A stretch of 64,000 bases of DNA from Kangiella taiwanensis (GTDB taxonomy: Bacteria; Pseudomonadota; Gammaproteobacteria; Enterobacterales; Kangiellaceae), in the NCBI RefSeq assembly GCF_020005165.1, contig NZ_JAHCLT010000003.1, positions 496,001 through 560,000 on the forward strand. Direction: 5' to 3'. The translations under genes and the position numbers were made by a program. The notes beneath the pieces are model-generated. The model ran no database searches and was not told the origin of the DNA. It was given only the letters and a program-made list of their open reading frames with translations. Shown piece by piece: positions 1,597 to 9,593 of this stretch. The number at the start of each line of letters is the position of its first letter. The stretch's first letter is position 1.

Positions 1597-2496
1597 TTAA
1601 GAATTAATCACACCACTCGGAACATGCCCGCTGGGGATGTGGCTTTTTGCACGGTCGATATGCCCTTCTTGGTCATCAAAGAAGACGTCGGCACCGAAAG
1701 CTTTGAGGAATTTAGTTTTGTCCATACCACCAAGGAACAGAGCTTCATCAATACGAATATCCCAGTAGCGTAATGTGCGAATCACGCGTTCATGTGCGGG
1801 GGCCGAACGCGCGGTGACAAGCGCTGTACGGATCGGACAGTTGTCTTGGGTGTATTCTTTTTGCAGTTTGTGGAGAGCCTGCAGGAAGTTTTTAAATGGC
1901 CCACCCTCTAAAGGTTTTTGTGCTGACTGCTTTTCGGAGCGAGTGAACTCTTCAAGGCCATCTTGCTGGAAAATTTGCTCAGCTTCATCAGAGAAAAGAA
2001 CCGCGTCGCCATCGAAAGCAAACTTGATAATATCGGTTTCATTATTCGACTGTGTCGGCGAAACAATGGTTGCAGCTGCGATACCCGCATTTATTGCCTG
2101 CAGGACATCTTTTGGGTTGGTCGATAAGAATAAGTGCGCGCCAAACGCTTCAGCATACAGATAAGGACTATTGCCCGATGTAAAAGCTGCACGTGTAATT
2201 TGGAGGCGGTGATTCTCGATCGAGTTAAACACGCGCAAGCCTGTATCAGCACTGTTGCGCGATAATAGAATCACTTCGACTTTTGGCGTATCTTTCTTAG
2301 TATCGTTAAGCGATAAAAGCTTCTTAACCAAGCCAAAAGCTGCGCCTGGCTTTAAAAGCTCATCTTCATGCTCGATTTGATATTGGGCGTAACTATCAAC
2401 ACCGCTTTCCATATAAATACGGTGGCTTTCAGCCAGATCAAACAGGGCCGTTGACGATATGGCGATAACTAAGGTGTCGTTAAACTCGATGGGCAT
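1597..2496 (-). CDS. Cytosolic 5'-nucleotidase (NT5C1-like family)
   Basis: The 299-residue soluble protein has no signal peptide and resembles the bacterial branch of the cytosolic 5'-nucleotidase I family (Pfam 5-nucleotidase), which dephosphorylates nucleoside 5'-monophosphates. Visible family traits are the N-terminal LVIAIS-TALFDL strand, the central FAFDGDAVLFSDEAE segment with the acidic HAD-like residues, and the C-terminal DVFFDDQEGHI block. It sits 12 bp downstream of mlaA on the same strand and is probably co-transcribed with it. Role in nucleotide recycling is inferred from the family; substrate preference cannot be read from the sequence. Confidence 0.8.
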   Translation of the reverse strand: MPIEFNDTLVIAISSTALFDLAESHRIYMESGVDSYAQYQIEHEDELLKPGAAFGLVKKLLSLNDTKKDTPKVEVILLSRNSADTGLRVFNSIENHRLQITRAAFTSGNSPYLYAEAFGAHLFLSTNPKDVLQAINAGIAAATIVSPTQSNNETDIIKFAFDGDAVLFSDEAEQIFQQDGLEEFTRSEKQSAQKPLEGGPFKNFLQALHKLQKEYTQDNCPIRTALVTARSAPAHERVIRTLRYWDIRIDEALFLGGMDKTKFLKAFGADVFFDDQEGHIDRAKSHIPSGHVPSGVINS

Positions 2497-2508
2497 AATG
2501 GTTTAGTT

Positions 2509-3234
2509 TTACCACTCTTCGCAATCTTCCTCAAACTCACACTCATCTTCAATCGGTGGGCGACCATCATAAATCAAAAACTCTCTACGTTGAAGATAGG
2601 CATCGCGGACCATCAAGTACTCATCTAACGCCTCTTCCAGTTGCTCTTCTAATGGTAACAACTCAGCGCGAGTATCAATCAACCATAAAGAACGTAATGT
2701 CCATTCCGTTTGAGAATCATTTAACGCATCGTAAGGACTGTAGACACCAAACGAATCGACCGCAAACCCAATACCATCTCTTGGGTTCGATGGCCCGATT
2801 AATGGCAACATCAGAAATGGCCCAGACTCAAAGCCCCATACGGCAAGGGTTTGACCAAAGTCTTCGTCTTGTTCTTTAATACCCATCTCAGTAGCAGGGT
2901 CAAGCAAACCTGCTAAGCCGATGGTACTGTTAATAAGGAAGCGTCCGGTGCTTTTCCCTGCATCACCAAATTTAGCTTGCAACAGGGAGTTTACGATATT
3001 TGAAATTTCACCTAAGTTATCAAAAAAGTTAGAGACACCAGCTTCAACAGGATCGGGCGTAATATACTGATAACCTTCTGCTACAGGTTTAAGAACAGCT
3101 TTATCAATCGAACGGTTAAAGTCCCAGACCGCTCTATTGCGTTCTTCATAGGGGTCTTTGGGATTGTCGCCTGTTGTGGCACAAGCGGTCAGCAGCAACG
3201 CTGACAAAAATATCATGATGTGGTTACTTTTCAT
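2509..3234 (-). CDS. mlaA: MlaA/VacJ outer-membrane lipoprotein
   Basis: This 241-residue lipoprotein has an N-terminal signal with lipobox LLTAC. The family core follows: DPYEERNRAVWDFNRSIDK, then KPVAEGYQ, a VSNFFDNLGEI helix and a GRFLINSTIGLAGLLDPA block. MlaA forms a channel in the outer membrane with porins and removes misplaced phospholipids from the outer leaflet, passing them to MlaC. None of the other mla genes lie in this window. The C-terminus is unusually acidic (multiple Glu/Asp ending EEW). The ATG at 3234 follows TGAGGA almost directly, so the ATG six codons in could be used instead. It lies 92 bp after hvfC and could be read through from that operon. Confidence 0.9.
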   Translation of the reverse strand: MKSNHIMIFLSALLLTACATTGDNPKDPYEERNRAVWDFNRSIDKAVLKPVAEGYQYITPDPVEAGVSNFFDNLGEISNIVNSLLQAKFGDAGKSTGRFLINSTIGLAGLLDPATEMGIKEQDEDFGQTLAVWGFESGPFLMLPLIGPSNPRDGIGFAVDSFGVYSPYDALNDSQTEWTLRSLWLIDTRAELLPLEEQLEEALDEYLMVRDAYLQRREFLIYDGRPPIEDECEFEEDCEEW

Positions 3235-3326
3235 TCCTCAATAACCTTGATCTTCTTAATATGCGCTAATCATAAAGCACCGGAACAGTTATGACCAGTG
3301 CAAAACCACGGATTGGCGGGGTTTAA

Positions 3327-4103
3327 TTAGGCGGTTCCTAGAATGATGTCACGTTCTAGTAAACCCGTTAAAATCTGTTGACCACCATTCAGTAATTGTT
3401 CAGGGTTTGGGAAGCCAGTCTCTTTAATCAACTGCTCTAAAGCTTGTTTGCCAGTAATTTGACGCCCCTCGTGCAAGTGCTCAATGAATATATCCAGCAG
3501 ACGATAAGTCATTGAATTACCTTCCATGAAGTCCACCTCATGCTTACGATTGCGGCTGATAAGCAAGAATGTTGGTGTCTCAGGTGGCTCATTGGGAATA
3601 AAACTGTTCCCAATTCGATGAACAGGGTATTCATAGACTAGACTGTGTGCCAATGGGGATACAACCACAGGTTCGTTAAACAAATCACCGTTTCGCTCAT
3701 GCGGAATCGTTAGAATATTTTCCTTCGCAGAAACCGTTTTGACCTCCATCCACTCCCAGTGTGCCAACTCGAGCATAAAAGGGAAATCATCAGCCTCGGA
3801 TTTACGGTGCTCCGAAAGGTAGTTAAAAAATTCTTTCGAAATCTCAATGAAATAAGGTGATTCGGCGCGGTATTCGGTGAAAAAGTCACGCACCATTCGG
3901 TGCCACTTATCATCAGAAGTGATTGAACGAAGTACTGGATAGCTGTTTTTACAGAAGTTCTCGATATTGTTATAAAACAAATCCTGATACACCTTCATCC
4001 GGCGTGACTCAATACCTGTTGGGGATTGATACTTGGCAGGGTTTCTCAGGTTCTTCGCAAACTCATACTGAAGTTGTTGAAATTTTGGTAATGATTCAGC
4101 CAT
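3327..4103 (-). CDS. hvfC: MNIO partner protein, DUF2063 family (HvfC/BufC-like)
   Basis: The 258-residue protein begins with the DUF2063 N-terminal domain: LQYEFAKNLRNP, then the SRRMKVYQDLFYNNIENF pattern, and an FF-EYR helix. A C-terminal domain of about 100 residues follows. In known DUF692 cassettes this protein binds the precursor leader and the MNIO enzyme, and is needed for cysteine modification. It lies 27 bp downstream of hvfB and two genes from the precursor hvfA, the canonical A-B-C order. No metal site or enzyme motif is evident, consistent with an accessory recognition role. Function by family and context. Confidence 0.85.
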   Translation of the reverse strand: MAESLPKFQQLQYEFAKNLRNPAKYQSPTGIESRRMKVYQDLFYNNIENFCKNSYPVLRSITSDDKWHRMVRDFFTEYRAESPYFIEISKEFFNYLSEHRKSEADDFPFMLELAHWEWMEVKTVSAKENILTIPHERNGDLFNEPVVVSPLAHSLVYEYPVHRIGNSFIPNEPPETPTFLLISRNRKHEVDFMEGNSMTYRLLDIFIEHLHEGRQITGKQALEQLIKETGFPNPEQLLNGGQQILTGLLERDIILGTA

Positions 4104-4130
4104 AGGCTCTGACTCTATGTGGTGACATCT

Positions 4131-4976
4131 CTAAGCGATTGCAGGCTGATTGTCATGCTTCACGCTGTATTTATCTTGTAACGCTTTAATTCTATCGACT
4201 TCCGATAGTAACTGAGGCATTTCAGGAATATTGAAATCACGCTCAAGTAACGTGGGGAACACACCAAAGTGCTGATAAGCCGTTTCGAGTAATGACCAAA
4301 CATCATCTTTGACATCAGCGCCATGGGTATCTACTTTTAAATCATCAGCCTCATCATAGTGACCCGCGATATGAGAATAGGCAACTCGTTCTTTCGGTAG
4401 CTCTAATAAAAACTCTTTTGGATCATAGCGATGGTTAATGCTGTTAACGTAGATATTGTTGATATCTAGCAAGATATCGCAATCCGCCTCTTTAACCACA
4501 GCTTTAAAAAATTCAAGCTCGGACATTTCTTGTCCAGGTGCAGCGTAATATGACACATTCTCCATAGCCAAACGCTGACCTATAATATCTTGGACTTGCT
4601 TGATGCGATCGGCCACGTAGTGCACCGCTTCTTCTGTAAAAGGTATTGGCATTAGGTCGTACATATGACCATCATCACTGCAATAGCTTAAATGCTCGCT
4701 GTAACAGCGGATGCTATATTTCTTGATAAACTCAGCGACTTCTTTAACAAAAGTTGTATCAAGAGGCGTTGGCCCACCAATTGATAATGATAGTCCATGG
4801 ATGACAAAGGGAAATCGTTCTGCGTACTGGGCAAACACCTGTTCTAGGTGACCACCAAATGGCAGCCAGTTTTCAGGCGCTACCTCCATGAAGTCAACGT
4901 TTGAAGCGTCTAGCGCTTCGAACTCACGCATGAAGTCACGTCTTAAACCTAGTCCTGCTCCGCTTACTGGGTACAA
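4131..4976 (-). CDS. hvfB: Multinuclear non-heme iron oxidase, DUF692 (HvfB/BufB-like)
   Basis: DUF692/MNIO TIM-barrel enzyme that modifies cysteines of a ribosomal peptide, here presumably the adjacent EGKCG protein. Family signatures are GAGLGLRRDF at the N-terminus, VDFMEVAPENW, HGLSLSIGG, SEHLSYCSDDGHMYDLMPIP, MENVSYY, LLDINNIYVN and HIAGHYD; the His, Glu, Asp and Asn residues in these blocks are the usual iron ligands. The longest frame starts at a GTG (5033), but that codon sits inside a stem-loop. I prefer the TTG at 4976, preceded by AAAGGTGA and giving the family-typical short N-terminus of 281 residues. The TTG start would make it weakly translated relative to hvfA. Confidence 0.88.
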   Translation of the reverse strand: MYPVSGAGLGLRRDFMREFEALDASNVDFMEVAPENWLPFGGHLEQVFAQYAERFPFVIHGLSLSIGGPTPLDTTFVKEVAEFIKKYSIRCYSEHLSYCSDDGHMYDLMPIPFTEEAVHYVADRIKQVQDIIGQRLAMENVSYYAAPGQEMSELEFFKAVVKEADCDILLDINNIYVNSINHRYDPKEFLLELPKERVAYSHIAGHYDEADDLKVDTHGADVKDDVWSLLETAYQHFGVFPTLLERDFNIPEMPQLLSEVDRIKALQDKYSVKHDNQPAIA

Positions 4977-5009
4977 AAAATCACCTTTGAAGAGTATGTA
5001 AGTTGGAAT

Positions 5010-5038
5010 TAAGGGTGATGGTGAAACCACCACCCTTA
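5010..5038 (-). promoter_or_regulatory. Intercistronic stem-loop between hvfA and hvfB
   Basis: On the minus strand TAAGGGTGGTGG pairs with CCATCACCCTTA across a five-base loop: 12 bp with one G-T wobble. No T-run follows, so it is not a standard terminator. Its position just after the hvfA stop suggests mRNA protection or attenuation that would keep precursor mRNA above enzyme mRNA. It also overlaps the alternative GTG start of hvfB at 5033, arguing against that start. Confidence 0.6.
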
Positions 5039-5057
5039 GGTGTCAAAGCTCAGAAAA

Positions 5058-5426
5058 TTAAGCTACGCCGCATTTACCTTCGCCGCACTTACCTTCTTTC
5101 TCGGCTTTTCCTTCACCGCATTTACCTTCGCCACACTTACCTTCTTTCTCGGCTTTTCCTTCACCGCATTTGCCTTCGCCGCACTTACCTTCTTTCTCGG
5201 CTTTGCCTTCGCCGCACTTACCTTCGTTTTCTTTGGCGTGCTCTTCACCACACTTGCCTTCGCCACATTTACCTTCACCTGCGTCGAATTTAGCAAGATC
5301 GTAGCCAGCTTGAAGATCGTTTAATGCGAATGGATTGTCGCTTGCAGCAGCTGTGCCCATAGCAGCAGAAGCTGCGATTGATGCACCAACGATGACGGCT
5401 AACTTTTTCTTGTCTTTATTTAACAT
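5058..5426 (-). CDS. hvfA: EGKCG-repeat RiPP precursor (HvfA/bufferin-like)
   Basis: A 122-residue exported low-complexity protein. Residues 1-28 are a signal peptide (basic start, hydrophobic AVIVGASIAAS core, AAA before SD). Residues 30-50 look like a recognition segment (NPFALNDLQAGYDLAKFDAG). Residues 51-120 contain nine EGKCG motifs, and the only cysteines of the protein are the nine in them. Residues 73-120 are three exact copies of a 16-residue unit. In characterised relatives the EGKCG cysteines are converted by the MNIO enzyme and its partner to copper-binding heterocycles (oxazolone/thioamide type). The ATG follows AGGAG with good spacing. It leads the hvfABC operon; unlike many relatives no DoxX gene follows. 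Confidence 0.88.
   Translation of the reverse strand: MLNKDKKKLAVIVGASIAASAAMGTAAASDNPFALNDLQAGYDLAKFDAGEGKCGEGKCGEEHAKENEGKCGEGKAEKEGKCGEGKCGEGKAEKEGKCGEGKCGEGKAEKEGKCGEGKCGVA
5067..5210 (-). repeat. Three 48-bp in-frame tandem repeats in hvfA
   Basis: Three consecutive 48-bp units encode identical 16-residue copies containing EGKAEK followed by EGKCG twice. The DNA copies differ only at a few synonymous positions, indicating recent duplication with selection on the peptide. Repeat number is likely to vary between strains. Confidence 0.85.
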
Positions 5427-5472
5427 AGAACTTACTCCTAGGTTGCTTACTTTAGTTAAGTTATTCAGAAAC

Positions 5473-5501
5473 TTAGACTTACCATATCTGAATTTGTTAC
5501 A
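5473..5501 (-). promoter_or_regulatory. Candidate ECF-sigma-type promoter of hvfABC
   Basis: On the minus strand TGTAAC (5501-5496) and GTCTAA (5478-5473) are spaced by 17 bp, and the hvfA ATG lies 47 nt downstream. The AAC -35 core with a GTC -10 is the general form of extracytoplasmic-function sigma promoters, which drive several MNIO cassettes in other bacteria. No ECF sigma gene is present in the window, so this is a motif-level guess. Confidence 0.35.
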
Positions 5502-5572
5502 GATTTTTTTTATTTAGTCTAAATTTCGCGCTTTTTGAGACAAAAGTCACGCAAAAAAGCACTTAAGCAACA

Positions 5573-6598
5573 CTATTCCACCACTTCCGTGATTTCTATG
5601 TGAAAGGTTTCGCTTGGCGTTAATGATTTCTGTAAACTGGTCTTACCAAAACGATCTCCTAGCTCAGGCTGAGCTAGACCACTTTGCGATAATCGCACCT
5701 CGACATACACGTCCTTCGCTTCCCATAAATCGACGCCAGGTAACATAACATGACTCGGAGTAAGCTTTTGTGGCTGACTCAATGTTGAGACATCAACAGA
5801 TTTAACCGCCAAAGGAGGACCGCCATTTTTATTGCGCACAAGAATAAATGCTTTCTTGTATCGTGTTAAAAGGAGTGAGTCGACGTTATCGACTACAATA
5901 CGGATGTGATTCAGTTCAGCGAGTTTTAGCAAACGCCTTGCTTGTGCAATTTGCTCATTGATTAGCTGATAAGAATCCGTGCCTTTTTCTCTGTATTGTA
6001 GTAACTCTTGCCAGTAGTCGATAGCGGCTTGATAGTCTTGCTGCTTAAAGTAATTTATACCCTGCATCAGTAAGGCGCCTTCATGGCTTGGTTCATTCAT
6101 CAACACAAGGTTTAAATAACGCTCCGCATTCTCAAAGGCTTCAGGACTTCCCTGCTCCATAAAGGAACGTGCAAATTCAATTCGGGTTTCAGCACTAGGC
6201 TTTGCAGCAACAGCCCGATTAAAGGCTTGCTCTGCTTGCGCGATTTCTCCAAACCGCAAAAAGATATTACCCAGTTCTTTCCATTTGTCGAAATTATCAG
6301 GATCACTTTCCGTTCTTAATCGAAGCTCCGCCAATAATTCTTGAATGGTAATTTCTTTTTGATCCGCCTTATTCGCTAATTCTTTTAAATCAAGTCCATT
6401 CAATCGCTGGTGTAACGCTGCGGTGTTTTCCAGTTCTTGATGAGCACCTTCAAAATAGTAAATCGCTAGCGAGCCGAAACAAGTGATTAGCAACATCGAC
6501 AGGTAAATAACGATTCTATTTTTCCCTGTAAATACCTGCCCAAACAACCAAGCAGCCCAAACTAAAGCAATTAAGATTAATACGCCCCAGACTAACAT
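5573..6598 (-). CDS. ccmI: Cytochrome c maturation protein CcmI (CycH-like)
   Basis: CcmI is the apocytochrome c chaperone of System I; it presents the CXXCH region to the CcmFH haem ligation complex. The 341-residue protein starts with two membrane helices (residues about 3-18 and 30-48) flanking a short cytoplasmic loop. A periplasmic region with several TPR repeats follows (for example WKELGNIFLRFGEIAQAEQA and the copies after it). The C-terminal domain of about 110 residues binds apocytochrome in relatives. It is the last gene of the ccm operon, 3 bp after ccmH, on the same strand. Confidence 0.92.
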   Translation of the reverse strand: MLVWGVLILIALVWAAWLFGQVFTGKNRIVIYLSMLLITCFGSLAIYYFEGAHQELENTAALHQRLNGLDLKELANKADQKEITIQELLAELRLRTESDPDNFDKWKELGNIFLRFGEIAQAEQAFNRAVAAKPSAETRIEFARSFMEQGSPEAFENAERYLNLVLMNEPSHEGALLMQGINYFKQQDYQAAIDYWQELLQYREKGTDSYQLINEQIAQARRLLKLAELNHIRIVVDNVDSLLLTRYKKAFILVRNKNGGPPLAVKSVDVSTLSQPQKLTPSHVMLPGVDLWEAKDVYVEVRLSQSGLAQPELGDRFGKTSLQKSLTPSETFHIEITEVVE

Positions 6599-6601
6599 GC
6601 G

Positions 6602-7024
6602 TTACTCTTCTCCAGACTCAGATTGCTCGCCCTTAACTCTGCGACGCCCTACTTTTGTCAATACAGCAGCTAGAATGATCAAGAACACAATAATAGGGGC
6701 AAACCATAGAAAGTAGTTAGACGGTTTAACAGGCGGATCATATAAAACAAAGTCGCCGTAACGCTCTTGCATATAAGCTAAAATTTCACGCTTTGTTTGG
6801 TTCTGACTAACTTTTTGATACACGATATAGCGCAAGTCTTCCGACAAACCCGCATTTGATTCAGCGATTGTCTGATTCTGACATTTTGGACAGCGGAGCT
6901 CATTAATGATTTCAGTGTAAAGTTGCTCTTGTTCTGGCGTTTCAAACTCGTAGGTTTCTATGACGGCTTGTAACTGAAAGCTCATCATTACGATCAAAGC
7001 TGTGAATAGTGTTTTCATCATCAT
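6602..7024 (-). CDS. ccmH: Cytochrome c maturation protein CcmH (CcmL-like)
   Basis: A 140-residue membrane-anchored thioredoxin-fold-like protein with an N-terminal signal, the invariant RCPKCQ motif (Cys45, Cys48) and one C-terminal helix (FLWFAPIIVFLIILAAVL). It keeps apocytochrome cysteines reduced for haem attachment. It contains only the short N-terminal CcmH module; the TPR part is the separate ccmI gene next door, unlike the fused E. coli CcmH. Start is uncertain between the two or three adjacent ATG codons. Confidence 0.94.
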   Translation of the reverse strand: MMMKTLFTALIVMMSFQLQAVIETYEFETPEQEQLYTEIINELRCPKCQNQTIAESNAGLSEDLRYIVYQKVSQNQTKREILAYMQERYGDFVLYDPPVKPSNYFLWFAPIIVFLIILAAVLTKVGRRRVKGEQSESGEE

Positions 7025-7039
7025 ATGTCCTAATTTGAT

Positions 7040-7612
7040 TTAAGGCGTTTGCTCTTGGACTAATTGCGTTAATGGCTTGCCCTGAATAGCCTCAACCGCC
7101 GGCTGAATTTTCGTTTCCCACACTCGGTCATCAATCACTCCCACGTACCGGAATCGTATATTACCTACAGCATCAACGATAAACGTCTCAGGAGCACCAT
7201 AAACACCGAGATCGATGCCAAACTGCCCCTCTTGATCCGCGATGATCATCGAGTAAGGATTACCTTTTGATTCAATAAACTCTAATCCATCCAACGTCTT
7301 ATCTTTGTAGTTAACGCCAACGATGGGTACTTCATACTGCTGTGCAAACTTCATTAAGTATGGATGCTCGATATGGCAAGGACCACACCACGACCCCCAG
7401 ACGTTTAGCAGAAACAGCTCATCCGGCAACGAATCAGATGTGTAAACAATTTCCGGGTTCTCTAGGGCTGGCAACTTAAACTCAGGGACTGGTTTATCGA
7501 TCAAGTTAGAGTTTAGCTTTGTTGGATCCTTGTCCAGTGCAAACCAAAAAAAGAACACTAAAATAATAAAAGTGATAATAGGCGCAATGGCCAAAACAAG
7601 CTTCTTATTCAC
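7040..7612 (-). CDS. ccmG: Thiol:disulfide interchange protein CcmG/DsbE
   Basis: Periplasmic, membrane-anchored thioredoxin-like reductase (190 residues) that reduces CcmH or apocytochrome. One N-terminal helix (about 5-25) is followed by the thioredoxin fold with active site WCGPC (Cys76, Cys79), the family insertion GVNYKDK, and a cis-Pro region GAPETFIVD. Its start overlaps the end of ccmF by 8 bp, showing translational coupling within the operon. Confidence 0.95.
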   Translation of the reverse strand: MNKKLVLAIAPIITFIILVFFFWFALDKDPTKLNSNLIDKPVPEFKLPALENPEIVYTSDSLPDELFLLNVWGSWCGPCHIEHPYLMKFAQQYEVPIVGVNYKDKTLDGLEFIESKGNPYSMIIADQEGQFGIDLGVYGAPETFIVDAVGNIRFRYVGVIDDRVWETKIQPAVEAIQGKPLTQLVQEQTP

Positions 7613-9593
7613 CAGAAACCTCCGCGCTTTGCACCTGATCTTTCTTTGCCTGTTTCTTTTCGCGACGTCTTTGGCGATAACGTTTATCTGAAATCGCTAG
7701 TAAGCCACCTAAAGCCATAAAGATCGTGCCTAACCAAATCCATCGTACAAAAGGCTTATAATGCACACTGATGGCCCAAGCACCATCATCTAGCGGCTCA
7801 CCCATTACAATATAGATATCCCTAAATAAACCGGCGTCAATATCCGCTTCAGTCATGACCATTCTGGACGCGTTGTACTTACGTTTCTCAGGATGAAGCT
7901 TGGTAATCAACTCTCCGTCTGACGACACTTTAAAGCTACCACCCGACGAGATGTAGTTAGGGCCTTCGGTATTTTTAAAGTCATAAAACTCAACACTTAA
8001 ATCTTCAACCTCAACCGTTTCTCCCAGCCGAATTTTAATGTTTTCTTCGATACTGAAGTATGAAGTAAGTACAACGCCTAATACGGTCACAGCCACACCC
8101 AAGTGCGCCACTAACATGCCCCAGTAACTGCGGCTGATTTTTTTCAAGCCAGCAGAAAAAGAGTCACTCTTTGACGCCTGAGCCAATACGTATTTGGCGC
8201 AGCCAGCCAGCACCCAAAGGCCTAAAGTTGTACCGACAATTGCCATAGGTTGTAAATCGCCCATGATAATGACAATGGCTAGACCGACGATAATGCTGCT
8301 AATAGCCCACAACCAATACTTGGTTAGAAGAGGCTTAATTGGCTCCTGTTTCCAATTAATTTGCTGCCCAATCGGCATCAAAATTAAGATCGGAATCATG
8401 AAGATAGAGAACATCAAGTTGAAATACGGAGGGCCGACGGAGGACTTACCGCCAGTAAAAGCTTCCTGAATCAGTGGGTGAAGCGTTCCCAACAAGACCA
8501 TAAAAGTGACAACCGCTAGTAACGCATTATTAAACAACAAAGCCGTTTCACGAGAGAATAATCCAAAGTTGGCTTTAGATCGTATTTTGCTGGATTGGAT
8601 CGCGTAAATCAGTAAAGAAACGCCTACTACAATGCCTAGGAACACTAAAATAAAACGTCCACGAACAGGGTCACTGGCAAACGAATGCACCGAGGTCAGG
8701 ACACCTGAGCGGACTAAGAAGGTTCCTAACAAGCTCAACGAGAAAGTTAAAATAGCGAGTAAGACAGTCCAAGACTTAAAGACGCCACGTTTTTCCGTAG
8801 CCGCCAAGGAGTGGATTAGTGCAGTACCTGCGAGCCAAGGCATAAAGGATGCATTTTCAACGGGATCCCAGAACCACCAGCCGCCCCAGCCGAGTTCGTA
8901 ATACGCCCACCAACTACCTAGGGCGATGCCTAACGACATGAAGATCCAGGCTACAGTGGTCCAAGGGCGACTCCAGCGAGCCCAGTGGTGATCCAAATCA
9001 CCCTGCAATAAACCCGCTATCGCAAAAGCGAACACCACTGAAAAGCCTACATAGCCCATATAGAGCATGGGCGGATGAACGATTAGACCAAAGTCCTGCA
9101 ATAACGGATTTAGATCAGCGCCGTCAATGGGGATAAACGGAAAGACCCGCTCAAAAGGGTTTGACGTAAATAATGTGAAAGCAATAAAACCAACGGCAAT
9201 AAAACCCATCACACCCAAGACGCGTGTCACAAGAACCTTAGGCAGAGACTTGCTAAATAGAGCAACCGCAGCCATCCAGCCGGTTAATATCAGCACCCAC
9301 AGCAACAAAGAACCTTCATGCGCACCCCACACTGCTGATATGCGGTAATAAATTGGTAACTGAGTATTGGAGTGGTTAGCCACATACTGGACGGAAAAGT
9401 CGTTAGTGATAAACGAAACCGTCAAGCAAATGTAGCTTAATAGTATGAGAACAAAACTACTGATGGATGCGCGCTTTGAAAAGCGCATCAAGCCTTTGTG
9501 TTCTTTTTGCGCGCCAACGAAGGATAAAACACCTAAAAATATGGCGTTAATAAACGCCATGATTAAGAAAAAATTACCGAGTTCAGGAATCAA
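7605..9593 (-). CDS. ccmF: Haem lyase subunit CcmF
   Basis: The large polytopic haem ligation protein (662 residues, about 15 membrane helices). It contains the tryptophan-rich WWD signature WGGWWFWDPVENASFMPW around residue 235 and the conserved periplasmic histidines that hold haem received from CcmE. With CcmH and CcmI it attaches haem to apocytochrome c on the periplasmic side. Length is typical of the family. A lysine/arginine-rich cytoplasmic tail ends the protein. It lies 9 bp downstream of ccmE. Confidence 0.96.
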   Translation of the reverse strand: MIPELGNFFLIMAFINAIFLGVLSFVGAQKEHKGLMRFSKRASISSFVLILLSYICLTVSFITNDFSVQYVANHSNTQLPIYYRISAVWGAHEGSLLLWVLILTGWMAAVALFSKSLPKVLVTRVLGVMGFIAVGFIAFTLFTSNPFERVFPFIPIDGADLNPLLQDFGLIVHPPMLYMGYVGFSVVFAFAIAGLLQGDLDHHWARWSRPWTTVAWIFMSLGIALGSWWAYYELGWGGWWFWDPVENASFMPWLAGTALIHSLAATEKRGVFKSWTVLLAILTFSLSLLGTFLVRSGVLTSVHSFASDPVRGRFILVFLGIVVGVSLLIYAIQSSKIRSKANFGLFSRETALLFNNALLAVVTFMVLLGTLHPLIQEAFTGGKSSVGPPYFNLMFSIFMIPILILMPIGQQINWKQEPIKPLLTKYWLWAISSIIVGLAIVIIMGDLQPMAIVGTTLGLWVLAGCAKYVLAQASKSDSFSAGLKKISRSYWGMLVAHLGVAVTVLGVVLTSYFSIEENIKIRLGETVEVEDLSVEFYDFKNTEGPNYISSGGSFKVSSDGELITKLHPEKRKYNASRMVMTEADIDAGLFRDIYIVMGEPLDDGAWAISVHYKPFVRWIWLGTIFMALGGLLAISDKRYRQRRREKKQAKKDQVQSAEVSGE

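Follow-up and report, generated by a model that had tools for sequence, protein, structure and literature searches.

An HvfABC-type operon of the EGKCG branch, conserved in Kangiella, and its predicted copper-sequestering peptide

The hvfABC locus and its conservation

The window, a stretch of 64,000 nucleotides from Kangiella taiwanensis, carries hvfA, hvfB and hvfC between positions 3327 and 5426, all on the minus strand and in A-B-C order, as confirmed by their open reading frames and coordinates. An initial annotation had claimed this order together with a DUF692 enzyme, a DUF2063 partner and a precursor of repeated EGKCG motifs, and the reading frames and the Pfam and NCBIfam matches confirm it. 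The features are as follows.

hvfA, 5058..5426, minus strand: precursor of 122 aa with a Sec-type signal at about residues 1-29 (by eye), the leader motif NPFALNDLQAGY and a nine-EGKCG core
Core with nine EGKCG motifs, 5067..5276, minus strand: four doublets and one unpaired motif (5225-5211)
hvfB, 4131..4976, minus strand: MNIO (DUF692) enzyme with a probable TTG start, AAAGGTGA upstream of it, RR and ERDF kept
hvfC, 3327..4103, minus strand: DUF2063 / PME1 partner of 258 aa with a RiPP recognition element
Strong hairpin at the hvfA/hvfB junction, 5010..5038 (ends approximate), minus strand: z = -4.6, no T-run
ECF-sigma-like promoter TGTAACAAATTCAGATATGGTAAGTCTAA, 5473..5501, minus strand: kept before hvfA across Kangiella

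The start of hvfB is probably the TTG at 4976, behind AAAGGTGA, rather than the GTG at 5033. The latter, taken from a mechanical list of reading frames, lies inside the intergenic hairpin and ahead of the start in the family profile. Upstream of the operon, on the same strand, are genes of the ccmF, ccmG, ccmH and ccmI type (ccmI named by Pfam, the others by reading of the sequence), and downstream are mlaA and a 5'-nucleotidase gene. The order ccm-hvfABC-mlaA-nucleotidase is identical in the Kangiella loci with flanks long enough to be read. The nearest named relatives are likewise Kangiella, with HvfB at most 94% identical, and hvfC was found above the cut-off in 20 of the 20 Kangiella genomes searched (this one included), in one copy each. 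This HvfABC operon is chromosomal and conserved across the genus, and it is of interest as an EGKCG captophorin operon that is single-copy, genus-wide and without DoxX.

The position of hvfABC between the cytochrome c maturation (ccm) genes and mlaA, at 1597-9593 of the window, is common to all readable Kangiella loci and to Pleionea (L052), which has both ccm and mlaA; mlaA follows hvfC in Microbulbifer and others too. The genes flanking mmrABC of Microbulbifer have been judged unrelated (PMC12538549).

Enzymes, precursor array and family membership

HvfB matches PF05114 (349 bits) and the NCBIfam model NF003818 'HvfB family' (443 bits, cut-off 360), and HvfC matches PF09836, PF22106 and NF050145 'HvfC family' (282 bits, cut-off 142). 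Solved relatives are the Histophilus MNIO structure 3bww for HvfB (E 6e-78) and 3dee for HvfC (alignment), and these matches fix the family of both proteins. The residues described for FonB are Arg15/Arg16, the catalytic Asp249 and Phe250 (PMC13097082). HvfB keeps the RR and the ERDF (catalytic Asp and Phe) of EGKCG-type MNIOs, a correspondence with FonB that was drawn by motif and near-equal numbering and not by a FonB alignment. When hvfB was compared with its counterpart in the nearest relative (L037), identity was 94% at first, 97.5% at second and 56% at third codon positions, which points to strong purifying selection; these figures apply to L037 only, direct base comparison with L038 and L039 being out of register. 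Values of dN/dS were saturated and were discarded as a measure of constraint.

In HvfA a lysine-rich N-terminus is followed by a hydrophobic stretch, giving a signal peptide that looks typically Sec-type when judged by eye. The EGKCG motifs start at residues 51, 56, 68, 79, 84, 95, 100, 111 and 116 and hold all of the cysteines (9/9), as had been claimed. The protein scores 76 bits against the HvfA-family KCGExKCG domain NF050137 (cut-off 19.5) and stays below the narrower HvfA equivalog NF050188 (51 bits, cut-off 95), a full-length model that the wider EGKCG family need not reach; this shortfall is probably due to the differing repeat number and spacers of HvfA. Searched against Pfam, HvfA gave no family match, hence no DUF2282 hit. 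In part the array is built from a 48-bp tandem repeat (3.3 copies, 93% match). Of the 76 precursors read, with some loci represented twice, 73 have EGKCG repeats and a leader resembling NPF...L..GY; the motifs are therefore not a product of chance.

That nine motifs might be unusual was ruled out, since the fully read Kangiella precursors carry 8-16. The MmrA precursors of Microbulbifer have 5-8 (PMC12538549), and 58 Cys have been counted in the longest published member of the family (PMC12452194). In the closest relatives of HvfA the count is nine or ten. Aligned with three ten-motif relatives, HvfA is without one EGKCG beside motif 3, so that four doublets and one single are left, and on this alignment the unpaired third motif (residue 68) is explained by the apparent loss of one EGKCG.

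Judged from its sequence, the locus is an HvfABC-type copper-RiPP cassette of the oxazolin/"captophorin" (EGKCG) branch and an ordinary member of the published family, which brings little new in kind. What is new is small: a genus-wide ECF-sigma-like promoter, a genus-wide hvfA/hvfB hairpin and the unpaired third motif. The oxazolin system HvfABC(X) of nontypeable Haemophilus influenzae likewise has an EGKCG precursor with a signal peptide (in Kangiella HvfA a putative one), an HvfB MNIO and an HvfC partner in A-B-C order, but its precursor has six motifs and its operon includes a DoxX-like HvfX, where the Kangiella locus has nine motifs and no DoxX. MmrABC of Microbulbifer is also alike, consisting of A-B-C only with an EGKCG precursor (5-8 Cys) and being conserved throughout a marine genus (PMC12538549); the genus and the spacers differ, and so does the number of motifs, 8-16 in Kangiella. 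Fontiphorin FonABC and gonophorin (captophorins) share the EGKCG-type MNIO-PME1 pair and make 5-thiooxazoles (PMC13097082), which are predicted for the Kangiella system.

Promoter, hairpin and DoxX

In the Kangiella loci that were read, the element TGTAACAAATTCAGATATGGTAAGTCTAA is kept before hvfA amid varying sequence. Among 66 precursors (some loci represented twice), 14 have such an element upstream, 13 in Kangiella, and searching the other strand of these stretches gave none. A -35/-10 pair of this kind resembles the promoters of ECF sigma factors. In H. influenzae the doxX-hvf operon depends on RpoE2, an ECF factor (PMC7907618). Several sigma factors are encoded in the present genome, across which the strict promoter pattern matched the hvfA site only; a relaxed pattern (S at -10) added two sites, of which one precedes a short, unidentified reading frame. 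A scan for sigma-70 promoters at the locus gave hits no more numerous than in shuffled sequence. The hairpin at the hvfA/hvfB junction recurs in Kangiella loci with differing stem sequences, and might partly terminate or protect the hvfA transcript.

As claimed initially, DoxX is missing beside hvfABC, and it was found in no Kangiella locus read. This genome has two DoxX genes, both unlinked to the hvf locus, and in Kangiella genomes generally DoxX genes sit elsewhere. Lack of DoxX at the locus is therefore a trait of the lineage and is shared by mmrABC, for which no DoxX has been reported (PMC12538549). DoxX is frequent, not obligatory, in HvfABC-type operons; a single-protein search placed it close to hvf in about half of the 80 related loci. 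Neither the missing DoxX nor the nine motifs thus distinguishes the locus in the way the initial annotation suggested, with DoxX missing in about half of related loci and the Kangiella range of motifs being what it is. A Kangiella operon without DoxX could nonetheless serve as a natural system for the contribution of DoxX and for repeat number versus copper loading.

One DoxX gene of this genome (G000 contig C1, L158:4731-7891) lies beside a glutamate-synthase-like gene. Divergent from it are the genes of an ECF sigma factor and of a zf-HC2 protein (78 aa) whose C-X25-H-X3-C-X2-C spacing is that of HrsE, an anti-sigma. Other Kangiella loci (L159-L162) have DoxX, glutamate-synthase and sigma genes in a similar arrangement. 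We considered whether this DoxX gene is a displaced hvfX/doxX; no TGTAAC-type promoter was found at that place in this genome, so a link to hvfA is not demonstrable. In three Kangiella genomes a second TGTAAC...GTCTAA site does lie near DoxX, and was rejected as a doxX promoter because it reads into a different gene. The identical site TGTAACAGATTGTAACTGTTCAGCGTCTAA, at L159:3558(-), L160:7223(+) and L162:3328(-), is about 100 bp before this gene, which encodes a protein of 597-600 aa, and possibly uses the same sigma factor as hvfA.

Predicted product and alternative functions

The ECF-type promoter upstream of hvfA is the probable start of transcription, and by way of the hairpin that follows hvfA the precursor may come to outnumber the enzyme. 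HvfC, through its RiPP recognition element, would probably bind the HvfA leader NPF...L..GY and offer the core to HvfB, which is predicted to oxidise the EGKCG cysteines to 5-thiooxazoles (4 H lost per site). The putative Sec signal would export the modified peptide, which could then bind and sequester copper, perhaps other soft metals as well, outside the cytoplasm. HvfA, FonA and the gonococcal precursor of other bacteria are 5-thiooxazole peptides by experiment, an earlier oxazolone/thioamide assignment having been revised (PMC13097082, PMC13419390). Large particles induced by copper have been observed, and it was suggested that copper binds stochastically within a heterogeneous network (PMC13097082). 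The idea of one peptide holding several copper ions, as a multi-site polymer, is already proposed in that work. Taken as a whole, a conserved HvfABC operon with 5-thiooxazoles made by HvfBC and an exported copper-sequestering peptide is the best explanation of the locus, with a probability of about 0.92, and we infer modification, copper binding, export and regulation from relatives.

Other readings have to be weighed. The initial annotation spoke of an HvfABC/bufferin-type cassette; the HvfABC part is upheld by the family matches, while the bufferin part is not. A bufferin (Buf1/Buf2) cassette would have in common with this locus the enzyme superfamily and the gene order, including an MNIO, a DUF2063 partner and a precursor with a signal (in HvfA a putative one), and the BufB model NF050167 does match HvfB. 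However, it does so at 269 bits, below its cut-off of 310, whereas the HvfB model reaches 443 against 360, and the precursor matches the EGKCG domain and has no DUF2282 hit. Bufferins are a sister type to the EGKCG oxazolins, with precursors of other families (DUF2282 or 6/12-Cys) and a BufB subfamily that stands apart; copper buffering is known from bufferins and predicted for HvfA. Because of the model scores a bufferin identity is already refuted at the level of the family, and we regard it as extremely improbable.

Hardly more credible is an unmodified, thiol-rich peptide resembling a metallothionein, for which HvfBC would be irrelevant. An EGKCG array of free thiols could bind Cu(I) alone, but hvfB and hvfC are adjacent to hvfA, are kept with it genus-wide and are strongly constrained. 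A role in protection from oxidants (hypochlorite, peroxide) or from soft metals in general, with copper binding secondary, is a possibility to be reckoned with, albeit an unlikely one: homologues in H. influenzae and Neisseria belong to ECF regulons that answer to oxidants (PMC7907618) and the hvfA promoter of Kangiella is ECF-like, yet the products that have been characterised are copper binders, and it is copper or gold to which related operons respond (PMC13097082).

Returning to an HvfABC operon that makes thiooxazoles, the unpaired motif at residue 68 may stay unmodified, since among minimal substrates FonBC modified a two-repeat and not a one-repeat peptide (PMC13097082). For a motif that sits in a longer array, the one-repeat result may serve as a prediction only. 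A broader proposal is that Kangiella HvfA arrays shift their number of modification sites fast through in-frame loss or gain of repeats, that the unpaired motif would make HvfA a mixed thiooxazole/thiol peptide, and that the operon may have its own ECF sigma factor; taken together, we consider this doubtful. A variation of another kind was seen by eye in two precursors (L063:3394-3967, L086:1-450), where an EF-hand-like stretch (DxDxDG) lies between EGKCG motifs, unlike the published EGKCG/EF-hand fusions, in which the EF-hands are at the C-terminus.
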